Of a DNA stretch of 45,623 nt, positions 31,091 to 40,730 are shown piece by piece. Made by a program: the position numbers and the translations under genes. The notes below the pieces were generated by a model. It was not told the DNA's origin. It searched no databases and saw only the letters and a list, made by a program, of their open reading frames with translations. This stretch comes from Archaeoglobaceae archaeon. Its GTDB lineage: Archaea; Halobacteriota; Archaeoglobi; Archaeoglobales; Archaeoglobaceae. Location of the stretch: positions 1-45,623 of the forward strand of contig JASKJN010000005.1 in NCBI GenBank assembly GCA_030153385.1, in the 5' to 3' direction. Position 1 is the stretch's first letter, and each line of letters starts with the position of its first letter.

Positions 31091-31747
31091 ATGATTGAGC
31101 TTTTGCTGGTAATACTGACAACAGCCTTGATCTACTTATTTTTGAAATACTCCAAGCTAAGTGGGGAAATTGAAACCCGTGCAATGGAAAAATTTGAAGA
31201 GTGGAAGAAAAGTGAGCTGGAAAGATATGTACAGGCGCTAAAAGGCCAGATTGAAGCTAGTGCAGTAGAAAAACTTGAAAAATGGAAGGAAACTGAATTA
31301 AAGAAGAACTTGCAGATTTTATTTGAACAATGGAGGGCAAAAGAAGAGAAAAGAATTAGAGAAGAAGCTATTAAGAAAAGCGAAGCGGTTATCAGAGGAA
31401 AGGTGACAGAACATTTAATTCCTTTTTTACCAGGGTTCAAGTATAACCCAAAGGATGCCAGATTTATAGGGACTCCGGTAGACTTTATAATCTTTGATGG
31501 ACTGGATGAAGGCAATATAAGGAAAATTGTGTTCGTTGAAATAAAAACGGGAAAGAACGCACGTTTGTCTGAAAGAGAGAGATTGATTAAAAAATGTGTT
31601 GAGGATAAAAATGTGGAATATGAAATAATCCACAAAAATGAGGTAGAGCATAAGCATTCTGTGATCGATGCTGCAGAAAAAGGTCTAACCTCTGAGGCTT
31701 TTGAAAAGACCGCAAAAGCTCCGCGCATCTCATCGATAAAAATATAA
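31091..31747 (+). CDS. Membrane-anchored Holliday-junction-resolvase-like endonuclease
   Basis: 218 residues. One N-terminal membrane helix ([17 protein letters not shown]), then a long charged coiled coil with two similar units ([39 protein letters not shown]), then a nuclease domain with [11 protein letters not shown] and [14 protein letters not shown]. The latter fit the PD...(E/D)xK catalytic pattern of the archaeal family distantly related to Holliday junction resolvases. The anchor suggests DNA cleavage near the membrane, for example of incoming DNA, but this is inference. Confidence 0.78.
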
Positions 31748-33167: not shown

Positions 33168-34235
33168 TTAAAACTCTAAAGCCTTTTCCATAGCTCTGAT
33201 ATCGAACTTTCTGTAGACATACCTCGTCCTTCCTCTGCCCTTCTCACCAAAAGTGACCTCAATTAACTTCAATCTCTCGAGTTTCTCCAGAATATCGTAG
33301 AACTTCCTGTAGCTCATCTTCACCTCTCCGCTCACGAGCTCATAAAGCTCTCCAGTAGATATCTCTTCCTGAGAGTAAGCAATCCTAAGCACAGCTCTCT
33401 CATCACTGTTCAGTGCTGAAACTATTTTGGCTATAAAAGGCACAGCTTCCCCCTCATGAGCCATCTCAATTTCTTCAATTGTTATTTTATCTTTTTTCTT
33501 GCTCTCAGCGATTATCCCTGCTGACTTAAGCAAAAATATGCCGTATCTAACGTCCCCGGCTTTTTTTGTTATCTCCACTGCTCTCTCAAATGCTTCTTTG
33601 TCAATTGAATCCTCCCAGAAGCCCTTTTCAACTCTTTTTTTCAGAATCTCCCTTATCTCGTACTCGCTGTAGCTCGGATAGTAAATCTCTGTATAGTGAA
33701 AAATGCTCCCAACGAAGGGATCCAGTGAAAGCGGAAACTTGAGATCTGTAACTGCAGAGATCACACCAACCTTAACTCCAAATTCTTCTGGAGCTTTCAG
33801 GATCTCGTATAGGACATCGTTAATACAGCCTTTGTTGAGAAAGTTGAGGTCATCAAGAACAACCAACAAGGGCTTTTCGAGCTTTTCCCAGACCTTTTCC
33901 ATCAAAACCGCCTTGCTTATCCCCATGGACGGTGGCTGATGGGCGAACACGTCGTAGAAGATCTTCGAAAAGATCTTGTAAGCATCTTTGAAGCGGGGAC
34001 AGCGGATGTAGGAGTAGAGGAAGTTGAGTTCCTCCTCTGCTTTTTCAAGAATAAATCTTATGCTCGAAGTCTTCCCTGTTGACGGCGGGCCGAGGCATAG
34101 TGCATTCAGCGGAGAGAAGCCATTTTTTGCGGGCTCTATACAGTAGGCAAGCTGTCTAAGCTGGGATTCTCTGAATAGAAGCTGATCTGGGACGTAGTCG
34201 GGGTCAAAGACGTCTCTGTTTCGGAATATGCTCAT
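33168..34235 (-). CDS. cdc6: Orc1/Cdc6-family replication initiator
   Basis: 355 residues: AAA+ domain with Walker A GPPSTGKTSS near residue 50, Walker B LLVVLDDLNFL (the usual DE is DD here), sensor 1 ISAVTDL, sensor 2 in GDVRYGIFLLKSAG, and a C-terminal winged helix (STGELYELVSGEVKMSYRKFYDILEKLERLKLI). Archaeal homologues bind origins. ATG 34235 (MSIFRNRDVFDPDYVP) fits the family, with a TTTATT box about 27 bp upstream. The PolB2 unit starts 94 bp away on the other strand. Confidence 0.93.
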   Translation of the reverse strand: MSIFRNRDVFDPDYVPDQLLFRESQLRQLAYCIEPAKNGFSPLNALCLGPPSTGKTSSIRFILEKAEEELNFLYSYIRCPRFKDAYKIFSKIFYDVFAHQPPSMGISKAVLMEKVWEKLEKPLLVVLDDLNFLNKGCINDVLYEILKAPEEFGVKVGVISAVTDLKFPLSLDPFVGSIFHYTEIYYPSYSEYEIREILKKRVEKGFWEDSIDKEAFERAVEITKKAGDVRYGIFLLKSAGIIAESKKKDKITIEEIEMAHEGEAVPFIAKIVSALNSDERAVLRIAYSQEEISTGELYELVSGEVKMSYRKFYDILEKLERLKLIEVTFGEKGRGRTRYVYRKFDIRAMEKALEF

Positions 34236-34328
34236 CAACGATAATTCGTCTGCGGTGAATAAATCTTAGCTGAAGGTCACTTGCAATCGGGGGTCCAAGT
34301 TCTTATTCGCTGAGGGGTATTAAGGGAT
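34236..34328. promoter_or_regulatory. Divergent region between cdc6 and the PolB2 unit
   Basis: Holds a minus-strand TTTATT box for cdc6, and TCTTATT at 34301-34307 centred 24 bp before ATG 34329. Two G-runs, CGGGGGTCC (34288-34296) and GAGGGGTAT (34312-34320), about 24 bp apart in the same orientation, recall the GGGGT end of archaeal origin-recognition boxes. The flanking consensus is not convincingly present. Confidence 0.35.
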
Positions 34329-34835
34329 ATGATCGAGGTGCTCTCAATTGAAATCGAGGGAGGTTTTAACGTAGTCTATGCCCCAGAAGAAGTTTGCAAA
34401 ATGGCTTTGGATAATCATAGGGCGATTTCAGCCTTATACATCATCGGAAACAGCTCAAAAGTTGCCGGAAGAGTGAGAAGAAACTTAAACGTTCGAAGGG
34501 CCTTCACAGTGCACCAGCTGATCGAAATTCTTCTCGAAGCGTATGAAGAAGTCGTTTTCATTGAGCATGATCCAGTGCTGTTCGAAGACTGCGACTTTCC
34601 GACACTTGAAGACTTAATAATGCTTTTACGCCAGATTGGAATTGACAGAACAGTTTTTTACTTCTCATGTCGCAGGGACAGGGTTTTCGATTTAATCACA
34701 AAGATGGCGGACAGATATGTTTACGTTGAAAGAGAAGAAAACGGCTATTACCTTGTTGATGCGAGCTGTAACGGGCTTAGACAACTTTTCTGTCCGAAGA
34801 ATGCTCAATTAACTCTCGAAGCCTTTTCAGGGTGA
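34329..34835 (+). CDS. Degenerate RecA/RadA-like protein of the PolB2 operon
   Basis: 168 residues. The segment GFNVVYAPEEVCKMAL occupies the place of a RecA-type Walker A loop (G-x4-GKT) but keeps only the lysine; both key glycines and the threonine are lost. A Walker-B-like strand follows (EEVVFIEHDPVLFE), then a RecA-like core (LLRQIGIDRTVFYFSCR, ADRYVYVEREENGYYLVD). It is therefore probably a nucleotide-blind RecA-fold protein. It is five bases from the next gene and upstream of a degenerate polymerase, like bacterial ImuA beside ImuB/DnaE2. The family call is from pattern only. Confidence 0.62.
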   Translation: MIEVLSIEIEGGFNVVYAPEEVCKMALDNHRAISALYIIGNSSKVAGRVRRNLNVRRAFTVHQLIEILLEAYEEVVFIEHDPVLFEDCDFPTLEDLIMLLRQIGIDRTVFYFSCRRDRVFDLITKMADRYVYVEREENGYYLVDASCNGLRQLFCPKNAQLTLEAFSG

Positions 34836-34839
34836 TTTT

Positions 34840-35088
34840 ATGGGCAGAAGCATTCCAAGCGTCCGTATGGAAGTGAAAAAGATTGCAGAAAGGTGGGAGA
34901 AAACTGCAAAGGTTTTGAAAAAGGAAGAAAGGCTATACGCCGAAAAACTTGCTGAAATGGCAATGAAGCACAGCAGTGAAGCTTTTTACGCCTTTGACGA
35001 TCCTTTGGAGGCTGTTGTCTTCTCAGTCTTTATCGAGATTCTGAAGGCGATCGATGTGGATTCTGGACTGTTACTCACGAGGGAATAG
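34840..35088 (+). CDS. Small helical protein between RecA-like and PolB2 genes
   Basis: 82 residues, three or four amphipathic helices with many Lys/Glu (EVKKIAERWEKTAKVLKKEERLYAEKLAEMAM). No family or catalytic motif recognised. GGTGAT three bases before ATG 34840 overlaps the stop of the RecA-like gene, and its end overlaps the polymerase start by 35 bp. It is thus embedded in the operon and probably bridges the two partners. Confidence 0.68.
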   Translation: MGRSIPSVRMEVKKIAERWEKTAKVLKKEERLYAEKLAEMAMKHSSEAFYAFDDPLEAVVFSVFIEILKAIDVDSGLLLTRE

Positions 35089-37051
35089 AGTAGAGCTGTG
35101 GCTGAAAAACGGCAAGAAGGTTAAAAGGAATACTGTGAGGTGGGAAAACAGTTTCTATCTTTATCTACCAGATCCTTCGCTTCACTCCGAGATGATTTCA
35201 GCTTTAGAAAGCTTTTACAGGATAGAGGAGTGCGAGATCAAAACGATATACGGGAAGCTAAAAGGCTACAAAATTTACGCTGGCAGAGACGTTGCAGAAA
35301 AAGTGGAGAGGCAGGCAAAGGACTGCAAACTCTTCAATGTCGATGTAAGGCTCGAACAGAAGTTCATGGCAGAAAAGGGAATCTTTCCATGTTCAAAGCC
35401 ATTCGATATTAGATTCAGCTCAGAATTCGAGGTTCCATTGACTTCATTGAGCATTGAGTTAAAGGGGAACATCTTCGAGCAGAGAATTGAGGAAGTTTAC
35501 ATTGATGGGGAGAAAATTGTAGGAAAAGAGAGTGAGATCGTGGAAGAAATGCTCTCCAAAGTTGAATCTGCGGATCCGGATCTCATCTTATTCAGAAATG
35601 TGGATTTCTGGATGCACAGAATCGAAGAAGTTGTCAAGAGAATTGGGGCGCCAAATTCTTTCAGCAGAACAAGTAAATTCATAAAAATGCCCCAGAAGTC
35701 ATACTGGAGTTATGGAAGAGCTAAATTTAGGAGGGAGGCTTTAATACCCGAGGGAAGAATTCTGATCGATACGGAGAACTTCAACTACCGCGAGGGCGGT
35801 TTGAAGGGGGTTCTCTTGGCTTCGAGAATTTCCGCAATTTCAGCAAATCTGGCTTCCCGTCTGAGCCCAGGGACGCTGATATCTCTCTATGAAGTCTATG
35901 AAGCCTTGAAAATTGGAATTGCAGTCCCTTTCAGGAAGAGCGATGCAGAAAAGAGAAAAACGCTGGAAGAGCTTAGACAAGTCGACAAAGGCGGAATGAT
36001 TCTCCAGCCTTCTCCAGGGATTTACGAGGATGTTTGGCAGTTGGATTTCACGTCAATGTATCCCTCAATAATCGTTGGATATAATCTCTCGCCTGAAACA
36101 GTTAGAAGTGGCTCAGAAACCACTGGATTCCTTCCAAAAGTCTTAAAACCTCTGTTTGAGCTCAGAATAAGGACCAAGAGGTTGAAAAAGGAAAACAAAG
36201 AGTATTCGGGAATCGATTCGATGCTGAAGTGGATGCTCGTAACTTGTTTTGGCTACACAGGCTACAGGAATGCGAAGTTTAGCAGAATCGAGGTGCATGA
36301 GGAGATAAACAGGATCGGACGCGAGATATTTTTGAAAACAAAGGAGATCGCTGAAAACATGGGCTTCGAAGTCATTCATGGCATGGTTGACTGTGTGTGG
36401 CTTAAGGGGTATGAAATCGAGGAGCTCAGGAATAGGGTTGAGATCGAGACAGGACTTTTGACTGAAGTCGATAAGTTCAGCTGGATCGTCTTTCTGCCGA
36501 TGAAGGATGGAAGTGGGGCTTACAATCGCTATTATGGCAGGCTTTTTGATGGAAAAATGAAGCTAAGAGGTGTTTTTGCGAGGAGAAGGGATTGCCCCGA
36601 ATATGTCAAAAGGATGCAGTTAAAATGTTTCGATTTGCTCTCAAAAGCTGAAAAAGTTGAAGATTTAATCAAACTCGCTCCAAAGTTACGCATGATCTAC
36701 GAGGAGTTCGCAAAAAACATGGTAAATGCGGATCCCGAGGAACTCATAATAAAAAGGATTGTCAGCAGGAGTGAGCATGCTAAGGAGACTCTGGAAGCTT
36801 CAGCGGTGAGAGAATACAGAAGACTCGGCTTCGAAGTCTTACCTGGGATGGCTTTGGAGTTTGTGGTCGTTGACAGAAGAAAGAAGGTGGTTAAGGTAAG
36901 GAATTTCGACAGTTTCGACGTGAAATACTATCTGAGATTGCTCAGAAAAGCATGGGAAGAGATAGAGTTCGCAATTAAATGGACAACCAATGCGGGGGGC
37001 GGGATTCGAACCCGCGGACCCCTTCGGGACAGGGTCTTAAGAATTTCATAA
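35054..37051 (+). CDS. polB2: Degenerate family-B DNA polymerase (PolB2 type), C-terminus rewritten by insertion
   Basis: 665 residues, about 100 shorter than replicative PolB. Motif A is intact (LDFTSMYPSII near residue 332). Motif B keeps the lysine but reads LKWMLVTCFGYTGY instead of K-x3-NSxYG. Motif C reads HGMVDCVWL near 441, so the first aspartate of DTD is Met. The 3'-5' exonuclease motifs are also damaged: Exo I DIE is SIE, and the FD of Exo II is FW. Polymerase activity should be weak or absent. From about residue 646 the protein is encoded by the attachment repeat of the downstream element (AGGGIRTRGPLRDRVLRIS). Start ATG 35054 lies inside the previous gene behind a GAAGGCGATC site. 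Confidence 0.85.
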   Translation: MWILDCYSRGNRVELWLKNGKKVKRNTVRWENSFYLYLPDPSLHSEMISALESFYRIEECEIKTIYGKLKGYKIYAGRDVAEKVERQAKDCKLFNVDVRLEQKFMAEKGIFPCSKPFDIRFSSEFEVPLTSLSIELKGNIFEQRIEEVYIDGEKIVGKESEIVEEMLSKVESADPDLILFRNVDFWMHRIEEVVKRIGAPNSFSRTSKFIKMPQKSYWSYGRAKFRREALIPEGRILIDTENFNYREGGLKGVLLASRISAISANLASRLSPGTLISLYEVYEALKIGIAVPFRKSDAEKRKTLEELRQVDKGGMILQPSPGIYEDVWQLDFTSMYPSIIVGYNLSPETVRSGSETTGFLPKVLKPLFELRIRTKRLKKENKEYSGIDSMLKWMLVTCFGYTGYRNAKFSRIEVHEEINRIGREIFLKTKEIAENMGFEVIHGMVDCVWLKGYEIEELRNRVEIETGLLTEVDKFSWIVFLPMKDGSGAYNRYYGRLFDGKMKLRGVFARRRDCPEYVKRMQLKCFDLLSKAEKVEDLIKLAPKLRMIYEEFAKNMVNADPEELIIKRIVSRSEHAKETLEASAVREYRRLGFEVLPGMALEFVVVDRRKKVVKVRNFDSFDVKYYLRLLRKAWEEIEFAIKWTTNAGGGIRTRGPLRDRVLRIS

Positions 37052-37827
37052 AATACAGCGATATAAAGGAAAAATTTGCAAAATGGATTGAAAATAAGGT
37101 TTCAAAAGCGTATAAAAAACAGCTTTTGAATTATCTTGACAAATTTGTAAATAATAAAATTATAAAAAGCCAAGAAGATTTGATTGAAATCATTGAAAAC
37201 TCAACAAGCAGAAAGAACATAATACTTGCTTTAAGGAATTTGATCAATTACTGCGAACAATTTGAAATCATAAGCCAAGAAAAAGCTTTGAGATTGAAAA
37301 AGATCCTTAAATGCGTAAGATCAAGTACTGATGCTTACGTTCCAAGCGATGAAGAAGTTAAAAGAGCTCTTGAGAAAATTGACAGAGATGGATATAGAAT
37401 TGTCTTCAAGCTAATAGCTTTCAGCGGGCTAAGAGTATTGGAAGCTATAAAGATGCTGAGTGAATTCAGAAAAGGAAGGCTAATGATAAATGGAAATATT
37501 GCAAAGTATCCATTGTTTGACGATAGATCAACTAAAAGAGCTTACTTCGCTTACATGCCAAAAAATTTTGCAATGGAGCTCAAAAGAATTAAATTGACAA
37601 AGAACGGAGTTTGCAACTATTTCTACAGAAAGAAGTTCAATCCCAAATATCTCAGAAAATGGAACTACAATTTCTTGATATTGAATGGAGTTCCATAATC
37701 GGTAGCAGATTTTATTCAGGGAAGAGCTTCTTATACAATAGGAGCAATGCATTACTTAGCTAAAGTTAAGCAAGCAGATGAATGGTATTCAAAAGTTGTT
37801 GATAAGCTTGAGAAGTTGCTTGAATGA
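36979..37827 (+). pseudogene. int: SSV-type tyrosine integrase, nonsense codon before the catalytic tyrosine
   Basis: The frame begins at an ATG in the host flank and reads through attL (CGGRDSNPRTPSGQGLK), the usual signature of integrases whose attP lies in their 5' coding part. The core-binding region and catalytic domain follow: first Arg in FSGLRVLEAIKML, Lys in DDRSTKRAYFAY, second Arg in YLRKWNYNF. TAA at 37696-37698 replaces an expected Glu (GAA) in NGVP-x-SVADFIQGR. The frame then continues to 37827 with GRASYTIGAMHYL, which carries the catalytic tyrosine. The truncated 239-residue product could bind but not cut DNA. Confidence 0.88.
36990..37041 (+). repeat. attL: 52-bp copy of the tRNA-Leu 3' half
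   Basis: Perfect direct repeat of 40679-40730. It runs from one base beyond the discriminator position to the anticodon loop (CTTAAG) of tRNA-Leu(UAA) read antisense. It joins the end of polB2 to the integrase gene and is the left boundary of the element. Confidence 0.93.
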
Positions 37828-37987
37828 AGTTAAAAATGAAAACATACACTATTCTTGTATTTCTCAAAAAAGCAAGTTTTGTATATTCACATAACCAGCA
37901 ATCCGATAATTCGGATCTTTTGCAAATAAAGTCTAAGAAAGACTAAGAAAGAAAATATTAAAAAGTAGGGAGAAGTAGGAATGTAAG
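37828..37987 (+). promoter_or_regulatory. Upstream region of the restriction-modification operon with two inverted repeats
   Basis: ATCCGATAATTCGGAT (37901-37916) is a perfect 6+4+6 palindrome followed by CTTTT, able to act as an integrase terminator or an operator. AGTCTAAGAAAGACT (37930-37944) is a perfect 5+5+5 inverted repeat whose GACT/AGTC-type arms recall controller boxes of restriction systems. A TATA-like AAATATTAAAAA lies at 37953-37964, and GGGAGAAG precedes ATG 37988. No controller gene is visible. Confidence 0.45.
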
Positions 37988-39280
37988 ATGAAAAATTCTG
38001 AGCAATTAAAATTGTGGATCGAGGAAGCTGAAGATAAAATGGATATACCTAACTCAAGCAATCCAGCTATTAAAATTCCCATACTTTTCAGAAATACTGT
38101 TCCCGAAATACCTTCAACCACATACGCAACTTTTGCCATCTACAAGTATCCCGCAAAATTTATTCCTCAAGTTATAGCATATGTGCTGAAGAAGTACGCC
38201 AAACCTGGCATGAAGATATTCGATCCATTTGCAGGCTATGGAACTGTTGGAGTAGTATCAAGAGTTTACGGGTTCGAGTATGAATTATGGGACTTGAACC
38301 CAATAATAGATGTTATCCACAAAACAGCCATCATGAAATCCTCAACAGTAAATCTCATGGATTTAATGAAGGAGATAAGGAATTCCAAAGAAGAATTTAT
38401 CCCAAAATGGTCTAATCTATACTATTGGTTTCCAGAAGAGTTTATAGATACCATTTCAAAAGCATGGGGATTCGCTCATTCATTAGATGAGGAAACTAAA
38501 CATATTCTCCTAATTCCTTTACTCAAAGTAACAAAATACTTCTCATATGCTGATGAAAAAGTTCACAAATTGTATAAGTCCAAGTATTCAAGAAGAAAAA
38601 TTGAAGGGTTGCTTAAAACAGACTGGAAACAGCGATTTTATGATATGCTCGAAAAAGAAATACGAATTTTACTCAAAAAGATTTCAGAATACAACCGTCT
38701 AAAACCGAAAGAGGTTAACTATCGTATAAAATCAGGAGTAGATACCTTGGAAATGAGTTTGGATCAAGATGTAAATATTCTCATCACTTCCCCGCCGTAT
38801 TTACAGGCGCAGGAATATATAAGATCAACCAAGTTGGAATTGTTTTGGTTAGGCTATGATGAAGAATATATAAAAAGCTTGAGCAAAAAGGAGATCCCTT
38901 ATAGACCAGTTGAAGAAATTGAGATTTATTCCGAGAAATTTTATGAATTTAGAGATATGATAAAAGAAGAGCATCTGAGAACGTTGTATGATAGATATTT
39001 TTATGCTATACTAAAAGCTTTTAATTCACTATGTGAGAATGTTAAAGATTATATGTGCATCTTTGTTGGGCCAGCAAAAATTAGGTCGATGCAAATACCA
39101 ATAGATGATATAATTGCTGAACATTTGCGTGAATTTGGTTGGAAACATGAGATCACTTTTATCGATACTATTGTTTCAAGAGTTATGTTTGAATCCGAAG
39201 TTAATCCTGCGTCAGGAGTAAAAGACAGCAGAATAAAGACCGAGCACTTAGTGATCTTGAAAAAGGGGGTGAATGAATGA
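37988..39280 (+). CDS. Site-specific DNA methyltransferase
   Basis: 430 residues. The SAM-binding motif FDPFAGYGTVG (near residue 76) precedes the catalytic motif TSPPYLQAQEY (near 262). SPPY is typical of N4-cytosine (sometimes N6-adenine) methylases, and I-before-IV order places it with alpha/gamma-like enzymes. The long spacer between the motifs (about 180 residues, FSYADEKVHKLYKSKYSRRK) probably holds the target-recognition region. ATGA overlap (4 bp) with the following endonuclease gene marks a restriction-modification operon. The recognition sequence cannot be read. Confidence 0.85.
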   Translation: MKNSEQLKLWIEEAEDKMDIPNSSNPAIKIPILFRNTVPEIPSTTYATFAIYKYPAKFIPQVIAYVLKKYAKPGMKIFDPFAGYGTVGVVSRVYGFEYELWDLNPIIDVIHKTAIMKSSTVNLMDLMKEIRNSKEEFIPKWSNLYYWFPEEFIDTISKAWGFAHSLDEETKHILLIPLLKVTKYFSYADEKVHKLYKSKYSRRKIEGLLKTDWKQRFYDMLEKEIRILLKKISEYNRLKPKEVNYRIKSGVDTLEMSLDQDVNILITSPPYLQAQEYIRSTKLELFWLGYDEEYIKSLSKKEIPYRPVEEIEIYSEKFYEFRDMIKEEHLRTLYDRYFYAILKAFNSLCENVKDYMCIFVGPAKIRSMQIPIDDIIAEHLREFGWKHEITFIDTIVSRVMFESEVNPASGVKDSRIKTEHLVILKKGVNE

Positions 39281-40260
39281 ATAGAATTAGACTTTCAAGA
39301 GGTAATTTGAATAGTCCAAGCAACTTTAAAAAAGAATTAAACGACTATATCCTAACTCTTAGGAATGGGGTTTTGGAACAATATAACATAGACTTTGATG
39401 TCGAAGAAATGGGTGACTTGCTACTTTCGATTTGTCGAAGTAATGACTTCAATGTAGTCTCTAAAATAGGAAATGAAATGTATTTGAATGAAGCACAAGT
39501 TAAAAAATGGATAGATGAGAAATTGATACCAAATACCCTGGTATTAAAATTAGATGATGAAGATGTAATAAGATTGCTGATATTCTGCATTGAAATAACT
39601 TATCAGATGTTCAGTGGAGGTACGAGAGCCACAGTTACCCAAAAGGGGTTCAGAGAACGGAGGAGAACCTTTGAATCGATACTTGTGGATCAATTTGTAG
39701 GAAAGCTGGGCGAAATTTTTGTTAAAAAATTCCTTGAGACCAACTACAGGGTGGATGTCGAATTGGACTGGGAAATCTCCACACAAATTGAGAAATATAG
39801 AAATGATATCTTGAATGCGAAGAAAAAGGTCAGTATAAAAACTTCACCTACTTTATCAGGTGCATGGGCAGAAGCAGATATAGGATATGACTATGGAATT
39901 ATGGTTAAATGTTCCGTTCCAAAGCAGCCGATTTTGCAATTTTTTATTGAGGCATGCGGTTTTTCGAGATTGTTGGATTTTGCAGAGAGGAAAATTCCAA
40001 CAAATGATGAACTTTTTAGAAATTATCTTGGTAATATCAGAGATAGGATTAAAGAATACAGGTGTGGAGAGGTCCAAACATCATTGAAAGGGTTTATTTG
40101 CGGATATTTTAAAACCTCTGACTTTTCTCCAATAAAAGAGGGTAAGGAATTGCCATATTTGGGAAAAGTTAGAGAAGAACGATATTTAGTCCCAGTAAGT
40201 CAGCTTAAATGGACAAAAAATGATTGGGAGGAATTTCTAAAGGATATAGGACTTTTATAA
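39277..40260 (+). CDS. Putative type II restriction endonuclease
   Basis: 327 residues. Identity rests mainly on position behind the methylase. A PD-(D/E)xK-like core is plausible: GKLGEIFVKKFLE (helix with Glu), an Asp in RNDIL and the VSIKTSP strand with SxK instead of ExK, near residues 140-190. The N-terminal 130 and C-terminal 110 residues match nothing I recognise. It translates from the ATGA overlap with the methylase. Codon use is AT-rich as in the methylase. Confidence 0.7.
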   Translation: MNRIRLSRGNLNSPSNFKKELNDYILTLRNGVLEQYNIDFDVEEMGDLLLSICRSNDFNVVSKIGNEMYLNEAQVKKWIDEKLIPNTLVLKLDDEDVIRLLIFCIEITYQMFSGGTRATVTQKGFRERRRTFESILVDQFVGKLGEIFVKKFLETNYRVDVELDWEISTQIEKYRNDILNAKKKVSIKTSPTLSGAWAEADIGYDYGIMVKCSVPKQPILQFFIEACGFSRLLDFAERKIPTNDELFRNYLGNIRDRIKEYRCGEVQTSLKGFICGYFKTSDFSPIKEGKELPYLGKVREERYLVPVSQLKWTKNDWEEFLKDIGLL

Positions 40261-40340
40261 TTTCTGCTAATCTTTGGTTCAAGAGGTTTACCAAAGCTGT
40301 CAACTAGGTTACCATTCATGTATTATATCATTCTTTGCTG

Positions 40341-40680
40341 CTATATAACACCGATTCTCTCGAGCAATTTTTTAACATCTCTGACTTTGATAACTCTCTC
40401 CCGCAGTTCTGGAACCTTGGGGGGCTGAATTTCAGCCGAAAGACTGGGATTAACGGTTTTGATAAATCTCCTGACGCGGATAAGCTTATTTCTCACTGTC
40501 TTCGGCTCGTAATTTCGTTTTAATTCGTTATATAAATTATTATGCTCTTAACATTAATCTGGTAGCAACATAGCTCTAAAAATTCAGAGATATCCCGCTC
40601 GTAAGCCTTGATTTCCCCAATTGAGATATTCTTTAAGTGCAGTTTTTCGAGAAAATCCTTAAAAGCGCTCAAAATCGCAT
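40341..40680 (-). pseudogene. Second tyrosine integrase, frameshifted N-terminal fragment
   Basis: Read from the tRNA 3' end into the element on the minus strand. The first frame gives AFKDFLEKLHLKNISIGEIK and AYERDISEFLEL, a core-binding domain start, and ends at TAA 40520. A second frame, overlapping near 40523-40550, continues with YNELKRNYEPKTVRNKLIRV, RRFIKTVNPSLSAEIQPPKV and PELRERVIKVRDVKKLLERI. It stops at TAG 40341-40343, just where the catalytic domain should begin. All catalytic residues are missing. It differs in sequence and strand from the integrase at the left end. Confidence 0.7.
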
Positions 40681-40730
40681 GCGGGGGGCGGGATTCGAAC
40701 CCGCGGACCCCTTCGGGACAGGGTCTTAAG
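40679..40730 (+). repeat. attR: 52-bp repeat within tRNA-Leu(UAA)
   Basis: Perfect copy of 36990-37041, forming the 3' half of the intact tRNA gene, so the element restored the tRNA on insertion. Confidence 0.93.

Follow-up and report, generated by a model that had tools for sequence, protein, structure and literature searches.

A probable PolB2 translesion mutasome operon in an Archaeoglobaceae archaeon, behind a conserved promoter box that also precedes other DNA-repair genes

An archaeal operon in which the family-B DNA polymerase PolB2 is encoded together with an inactivated RadA (iRadA) and a small protein (PPB2) was described as the arCOG07300 operon by Makarova et al. 2014 (PMC4104785) and as a PolB2 mutasome by Timinskas et al. 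2025 (PMC11791011). In Sulfolobus, the PolB2-family polymerase Dpo2 is damage-inducible and causes targeted mutagenesis (PMC7390963). Dpo2 has an HxxxD motif C, whose metal ligand is the second Asp; it incorporates nucleotides on par with the replicase, has no proofreading activity, and can elongate from mismatches and from ends at lesions (PMC8764526). Here we analyze an operon of this type in a 45,623-nucleotide stretch of DNA (the window) from an Archaeoglobaceae archaeon, whose genome is available as an incomplete assembly of 1.4 Mb in 79 contigs.

The operon consists of three real and intact genes on the forward strand: iRadA (34329-34835; 168 aa), PPB2 (34840-35088; 82 aa) and the PolB2 DNA polymerase ORF (35054-37051; 665 aa). 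A preliminary description of the window had located the same three ORFs and called them overlapping. This is true of PPB2 and PolB2, which share 35 nt, but not of iRadA and PPB2, which lie 4 nt apart. It had also made its proposal, an accessory complex for lesion bypass or repair, depend on a RecA fold in the first protein, a conserved gene order and the absence of neutral substitution rates. We found the RecA fold, the order iRadA-PPB2-PolB2 in the Archaeoglobi and methanogen loci that were examined, and ratios of nonsynonymous to synonymous substitution rates (dN/dS) of about 0.1 in relatives.

With a probability of roughly 85%, the three genes specify a translesion mutasome of the PolB2 kind, i.e., a probably active PolB2 that is used past lesions together with a nucleotide-blind iRadA and PPB2. 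The genes, their order, the folds, the conserved motifs and the purifying selection in relatives were observed here. For catalysis, translesion extension and damage induction we rely on published work with Sulfolobus homologues, and for the pentamer of PolB2, iRadA and a PPB2 trimer on published models only. The outline of the preliminary proposal agrees with the literature and with the tests run here, but its non-catalytic polymerase is probably wrong and its bacterial analogy is not the nearest one. As its author had suspected, a similar idea was already published (PMC4104785, PMC11791011).

PolB2 matches the NCBIfam type B DNA-directed DNA polymerase family NF004416 over residues 1-644 (E=4.5e-264, 878 bits; cut-off 516 bits) and Pfam DNA_pol_B (E=5.8e-21), and its structural model (pLDDT 86) matches archaeal family-B polymerases in Foldseek (E=1e-36). 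In an alignment with PolB3 of the same genome, motif C is changed from DTD to MVD, motif B from KILTNSLYG to KWMLVTCFG (36227-36253; the usual form is KxxxNSxYG), and the ExoII Asp is lost; changes in motifs B and C and in the exonuclease motifs had been noted before. They had led to the view that the polymerase is catalytically ruined, an opinion also held early on in the literature (PMC4104785). In that case, PolB2 would be devoid of catalysis and would serve, together with iRadA, as a scaffold that brings in or guides a different polymerase or a repair enzyme, which would fit the loss of the first motif C Asp and of the exonuclease Asp and the altered motif B. However, more is conserved than a scaffold would need. 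Among 23 sequences, D331 of motif A (DFTSMYPS, 36044-36067), H442 and D446 of motif C (HGMVD, 36377-36391) and D311 are invariant, and the KWMLVTCFGYTGYRNAKF block is mostly invariant or nearly so. D311 and K312 (35984-35989) form the D(K/R) motif, which sits in a loop that precedes motif A. Given that D331 and D446 are invariant and that Dpo2 is active with the same HxxxD motif (PMC8764526), the window PolB2 is probably catalytic, as judged from its sequence and by analogy, and a ruined active site is unlikely. We therefore regard the scaffold explanation as improbable.

The first protein has a RecA-type fold, as had been predicted. An AlphaFold2 model of iRadA built with 28 homologues (pLDDT 89, pTM 0.85) matches RAD51 paralogue complexes, RecA, Rad51 and RadA in the PDB at probability 1.00, with Foldseek E-values from 6e-7 to 1e-4, and the top-ranked matches, above those of RecA type, are to BcsE (E 1.4e-7). 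Sequence searches did not recover this relationship. There is no Pfam match, and neither phmmer nor an hmmsearch of the PDB with the 28-sequence profile gave anything relevant. A comparison with 21 RadA sequences using hhalign gave E=0.085, and column-shuffled controls were as good (best 0.036), so profile searches by themselves do not point to RecA. Because sequence methods fail while fold comparison succeeds, the relationship of iRadA to RecA is structural. One local likeness, from an informal comparison, is consistent with it: the iRadA segment VRRAFTxHQL (VARAFTSHQL in L032-L034) resembles FVAQAYNSNHQ in RadA of the same genome.

In the iRadA model, the first core strand (residues 12-17) is followed by a helix (20-28), such that the P-loop position is occupied by the turn A17-P18-E19-E20; both the model and the alignment lack GKT there. 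The preliminary description had identified a Walker A motif retaining only its lysine. We rejected this candidate, IIGNSSK (residues 38-44), as it follows the second core strand (35-39) and its K44 is not conserved. Taken together, the length of 168 aa, the Foldseek matches, the model and the alignment characterize iRadA as a RecA/RadA-fold partner that has neither the N-terminal domain nor the ATPase residues. Its C-terminal end reads QLTLEAF(SG), and a QxTLExF-type end occurs in most of the 28 homologues, with L163 invariant and Q160 conserved in at least 90%. QLTLEAF (34806-34826) fits the QxxLxxF pattern of PCNA-box motifs except that the second aromatic residue is missing, and is a putative clamp motif on the basis of its sequence. 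PCNA motifs were placed at the same location, the iRadA C-terminus, in PMC11791011.

PPB2 is an arCOG07300-like small helical protein. Its N-terminus, MGRSIPSVR, contains the MGR(T/S) signature as well as Arg3 and Arg9, and its 82 residues fit the PPB2 definition (~80-90 aa). Among 31 homologues, M1, G2, R3, S7, R9, A58, F61 and E66 are invariant and S4 is conserved in at least 90%. Published models place the N-terminal arm of PPB2 in the cleft between PolB2 and iRadA (PMC11791011). On the mutasome reading, the parts would probably work as follows. PolB2, an atypical, proofreading-free and probably active polymerase, as suggested by its sequence and by analogy, would be held by iRadA, whose RecA fold would not bind nucleotides. 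PPB2 would form a small helical oligomer with its MGRS arm entering the PolB2/iRadA cleft, and the C-terminal PCNA-box-like motif of iRadA would provide contact with the sliding clamp. The complex would be made after DNA damage and would extend primer ends beyond lesions.

The operon is patchily distributed: within the class, 13 genomes out of 59 have PPB2, and within the phylum 79 out of 394. The operon of an Archaeoglobus locus (L001) recurs among genomes of the same family (L024). Between the close relatives L022 and L024, dN/dS is 0.10 for iRadA, 0.09 for PPB2 and 0.11 for PolB2, and values near 0.1 indicate purifying selection in these relatives. One genome (G014) has two operon copies, of which one (L034:5189-7127) has PolB2 split over two frames.

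Several observations weigh against the mutasome reading for the window. We found no biochemistry on any euryarchaeal PolB2 in the accessible literature. Synonymous sites between the window and its relatives are mostly saturated, such that dN/dS is not measurable on the window's own copy; we infer selection on this copy from its preserved frames and residues. A sister species in the same genus (G046) has only a decayed operon remnant (L031:5238-6190), in which the iRadA start codon is lost (CTG) and followed by an in-frame TAG, while PPB2 is cut short at ~38 residues, where it runs into the final portion of PolB2, a gene that is otherwise mostly deleted. This remnant adjoins intact tRNA-Leu sequence. 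In another genome (G010), iRadA occurs without an adjacent PolB2. The state of the locus in G046 and G010 shows that the operon is dispensable, yet it is selected where it is retained. None of the outcomes that would have refuted the preliminary proposal was observed, although the sister species does have a pseudogenized copy.

A related question is whether the operon is decaying toward loss and persists in the window by chance. The damage to iRadA and PolB2 in G046 and the patchy distribution are compatible with such a process, as is an integrated element that abuts the window's PolB2 and replaces its C-terminal tail. By contrast, the window copy has three intact frames and every family-invariant residue, its promoter box (see below) is kept, relatives have dN/dS values of about 0.1, and the altered tail of PolB2 lies outside the homologous region and is predicted to be disordered. 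Chance retention of a dying operon is accordingly unlikely.

The small element is integrated in tRNA-Leu(TAA) and spans 36990-40730. It is bounded by two 52-bp att copies (36990-37041 and 40679-40730) that are 100% identical; the first corresponds to the 3′ part of tRNA-Leu(TAA), and the second lies inside an intact tRNA-Leu. The last ~20 residues of PolB2 (36989-37051) are encoded by the first att/tRNA-Leu copy, at which the element starts, and are not homologous to other PolB2 proteins. Integration has replaced the former end of the PolB2 ORF. From this att copy, the element carries the ORF of an archaeal integrase (36979-37698). Further along are a gene resembling DNA methylases (37988-39280) and one for a 327-aa protein (39277-40260). 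The last two are possibly restriction-modification cargo. The integrase may be broken, because its match to PF16795 (positions 2-124 of 161) stops before the end of the profile.

Upstream of the operon we found a conserved promoter box, CACTTGCAATCGGGGGT (34278-34294, forward strand), which begins 51 nt ahead of the start codon of iRadA and occurs only once in its own genome. A possible TATA-like element, TTCTTATTC (34300-34308, forward strand), follows some 20 nt after the first base of the box; it is weak, and its position matches TTTATA/CTTAT in the promoters of relatives. An alignment of the window, G046 and four Archaeoglobus-type genomes has CACTTGCAnnCrGGGGTynAA in common at a fixed distance upstream of iRadA, between diverged flanks. 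More broadly, of 32 euryarchaeal upstream regions, 25 have CACTT[TG]C at a distance of 45-66 nt ahead of the iRadA start codon, compared to an average of 0.1 in shuffled sequences. The regions were taken from Archaeoglobi and relatives of methanogen type and comprise 31 operons plus the remnant in G046, and the 25 with the box are related sequences, hence not 25 independent events. In haloarchaea, only one of 12 PolB2 loci has the box, so its generality is not established there.

The box also precedes other genes. Its methanogen form, CACTTTCRCHCYGC, has 50 sites in 20 genomes, versus 4 for the reversed pattern. The genes behind these sites are PolB2-operon genes (14), a family of ~148-aa proteins (11), orc1/cdc6 (3), radA (2), a protein with an RNase_H_2 domain (2), an RPA-like gene (1) and unassigned genes (17). 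The 14 PolB2-operon sites are circular, because the pattern was derived from PolB2 operons, and the RPA-like assignment rests on a weak OB-fold match and general appearance. A CACTTTC core lies 80-100 nt upstream of radA in six loci, which had been collected for another purpose and of which three are from mutual near relatives. No box was found upstream of radA in the window's own genome. The Archaeoglobus form, TCACTTKCANNNNGGGG, has 11 sites in ten genomes and none for a control pattern; it stands 52 nt before the start codons of iRadA and of small uncharacterized genes, and it was not found in four genomes without the operon.

Two sets of uncharacterized genes stand out. One is the ~148-aa family (~140-150 aa), located behind the box in 11 methanogen loci, which has no significant Pfam or NCBIfam family and is a candidate damage-response gene. 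The other comprises small genes (65-66 aa and 88 aa) in four loci, each at a distance of exactly 52 nt from an upstream box of the Archaeoglobus form. The 66- and 88-aa proteins likewise have no significant Pfam or NCBIfam family.

Divergent from the operon is the Orc1/Cdc6 gene noted in the preliminary description (33168-34238, reverse strand), which scores 411 bits against the ORC1-type family NF001624 (cut-off 354 bits) and is a candidate regulator. A second Orc elsewhere in the genome is only 29% identical to it. The same neighbor is found next to the operon in the closest relatives. Orthologues with at least 63% identity occur in only six genomes of Archaeoglobaceae, and these are the same genomes that have a window-type operon or its remnant; in G046, the intact orthologue sits on a separate contig (G046:C139). 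Slightly past the Orc gene, at 31091-31747, there is a Holliday-junction-resolvase-related endonuclease (PF10107).

Boxes of a similar kind have been associated with DNA damage. In Halobacterium, TTTCACTTTCA is common to UV-B-induced genes, roughly 50 nt ahead of their start codons, and it also precedes radA of other halophiles and Methanospirillum (PMC2556686). Damage genes of Sulfolobus have ANTTTC upstream of the core promoter (PMC5817253), and this sequence is bound by Orc1-2, an Orc that is not an initiator (PMC9738581). ACTTTC occurs exactly in most euryarchaeal operon boxes; as a point against such a correspondence in this genome, the window box reads ACTTGC, one mismatch from ANTTTC. 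An Orc1/Cdc6 neighbor was already proposed to be consistent with damage induction (PMC11791011), and we infer that the window Orc acts through the box at 34278-34294. It is about an even chance that this adjacent paralogue, by binding the box, brings about damage induction in this genome.

The occurrence of the box in front of radA, orc1/cdc6 and RPA-like genes of methanogens suggests a possible SOS-like regulon. Its proposed members are iRadA-PPB2-PolB2, radA, orc1/cdc6, the RPA-like gene, the RNase_H_2-family gene and the uncharacterized ~148-aa protein. A broader and more tentative idea, which we consider slightly less likely true than false, is that such a regulon exists in Euryarchaeota, is controlled by an Orc1/Cdc6 paralogue and has a common origin with the Orc1-2/ANTTTC response of crenarchaea. 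A single ancient response to damage, based on a replication initiator, would then exist in archaea. If confirmed, the box would link the Halobacterium UV motif, Sulfolobus Orc1-2 and the unexplained Orc1/Cdc6 beside PolB2 into an archaeal counterpart of SOS. It also singles out a few genes and sites worth examining. Another role, in which the complex and Orc1/Cdc6 take part in origin recognition or origin-independent initiation, was put forward in PMC4104785 and fits the adjacency kept in the closest relatives, but it is very improbable given that the Orc at this locus is one of two in the genome and a divergent paralogue, that a Sulfolobus Orc1 non-initiator regulates damage genes (PMC9738581), that the box before radA, the RPA-like gene and orc (in three methanogen loci, the orc genes themselves follow it) suggests a regulon, and that the operon is missing from most genomes of the class.

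Among known systems, the operon is closest to the published PolB2 mutasome operon (PMC11791011, PMC4104785). It has the same gene order, PPB2 MGR(S/T) arm, HxxxD motif C, D(K/R) loop, inactivated RadA without the N-terminal domain, PIP-like iRadA tail and Orc1/Cdc6 neighbor, and differs by its att/tRNA-Leu-encoded PolB2 tail and its promoter box. The openly licensed papers that were searched, including the texts of PMC11791011 and PMC4104785, do not mention such a box in front of PolB2 operons as far as we could see. The gene set itself was thus already described, and what seems to be new is a conserved box that precedes the operon and is common to other DNA-repair genes.

The box resembles Halobacterium TTTCACTTTCA (PMC2556686) and Sulfolobus ANTTTC (PMC5817253, PMC9738581) in being of the CACTT(T/G)C type, ~50 nt upstream of starts and upstream of a TATA-like element. 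It differs from them in fronting the PolB2 operons of Archaeoglobi and methanogens, with the Archaeoglobus form CACTTGCATCCGGGGGT.

E. coli Pol V (UmuC-UmuD'2-RecA) was proposed to have the same combination of a polymerase, a RecA-fold subunit and a small oligomer with an inserted N-terminal arm (PMC11791011). It differs in having a family-Y polymerase, an active RecA and UmuD' instead of PPB2. In bacterial ImuA-ImuB-DnaE2 systems, a RecA-like protein and atypical polymerases are encoded in one operon. The preliminary description drew its parallel from these, but we rejected them as an analogue: the window operon has a family-B polymerase and neither the Y-family ImuB nor the C-family DnaE2, and what iRadA shares with ImuA is the RecA fold. 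Pol V is the nearer parallel according to PMC11791011.

Sulfolobus Dpo2 (PMC7390963, PMC8764526) belongs to the same PolB2 family and also has a motif C without the first Asp. The two differ in that Dpo2 is crenarchaeal, its motif C reads IID rather than MVD, and it is an established damage-inducible translesion extender, whereas the window PolB2 is known from its sequence. The operon thus provides a well-supported example, from beyond the Sulfolobales, of a polymerase that had been regarded as dead but more likely acts in translesion synthesis.

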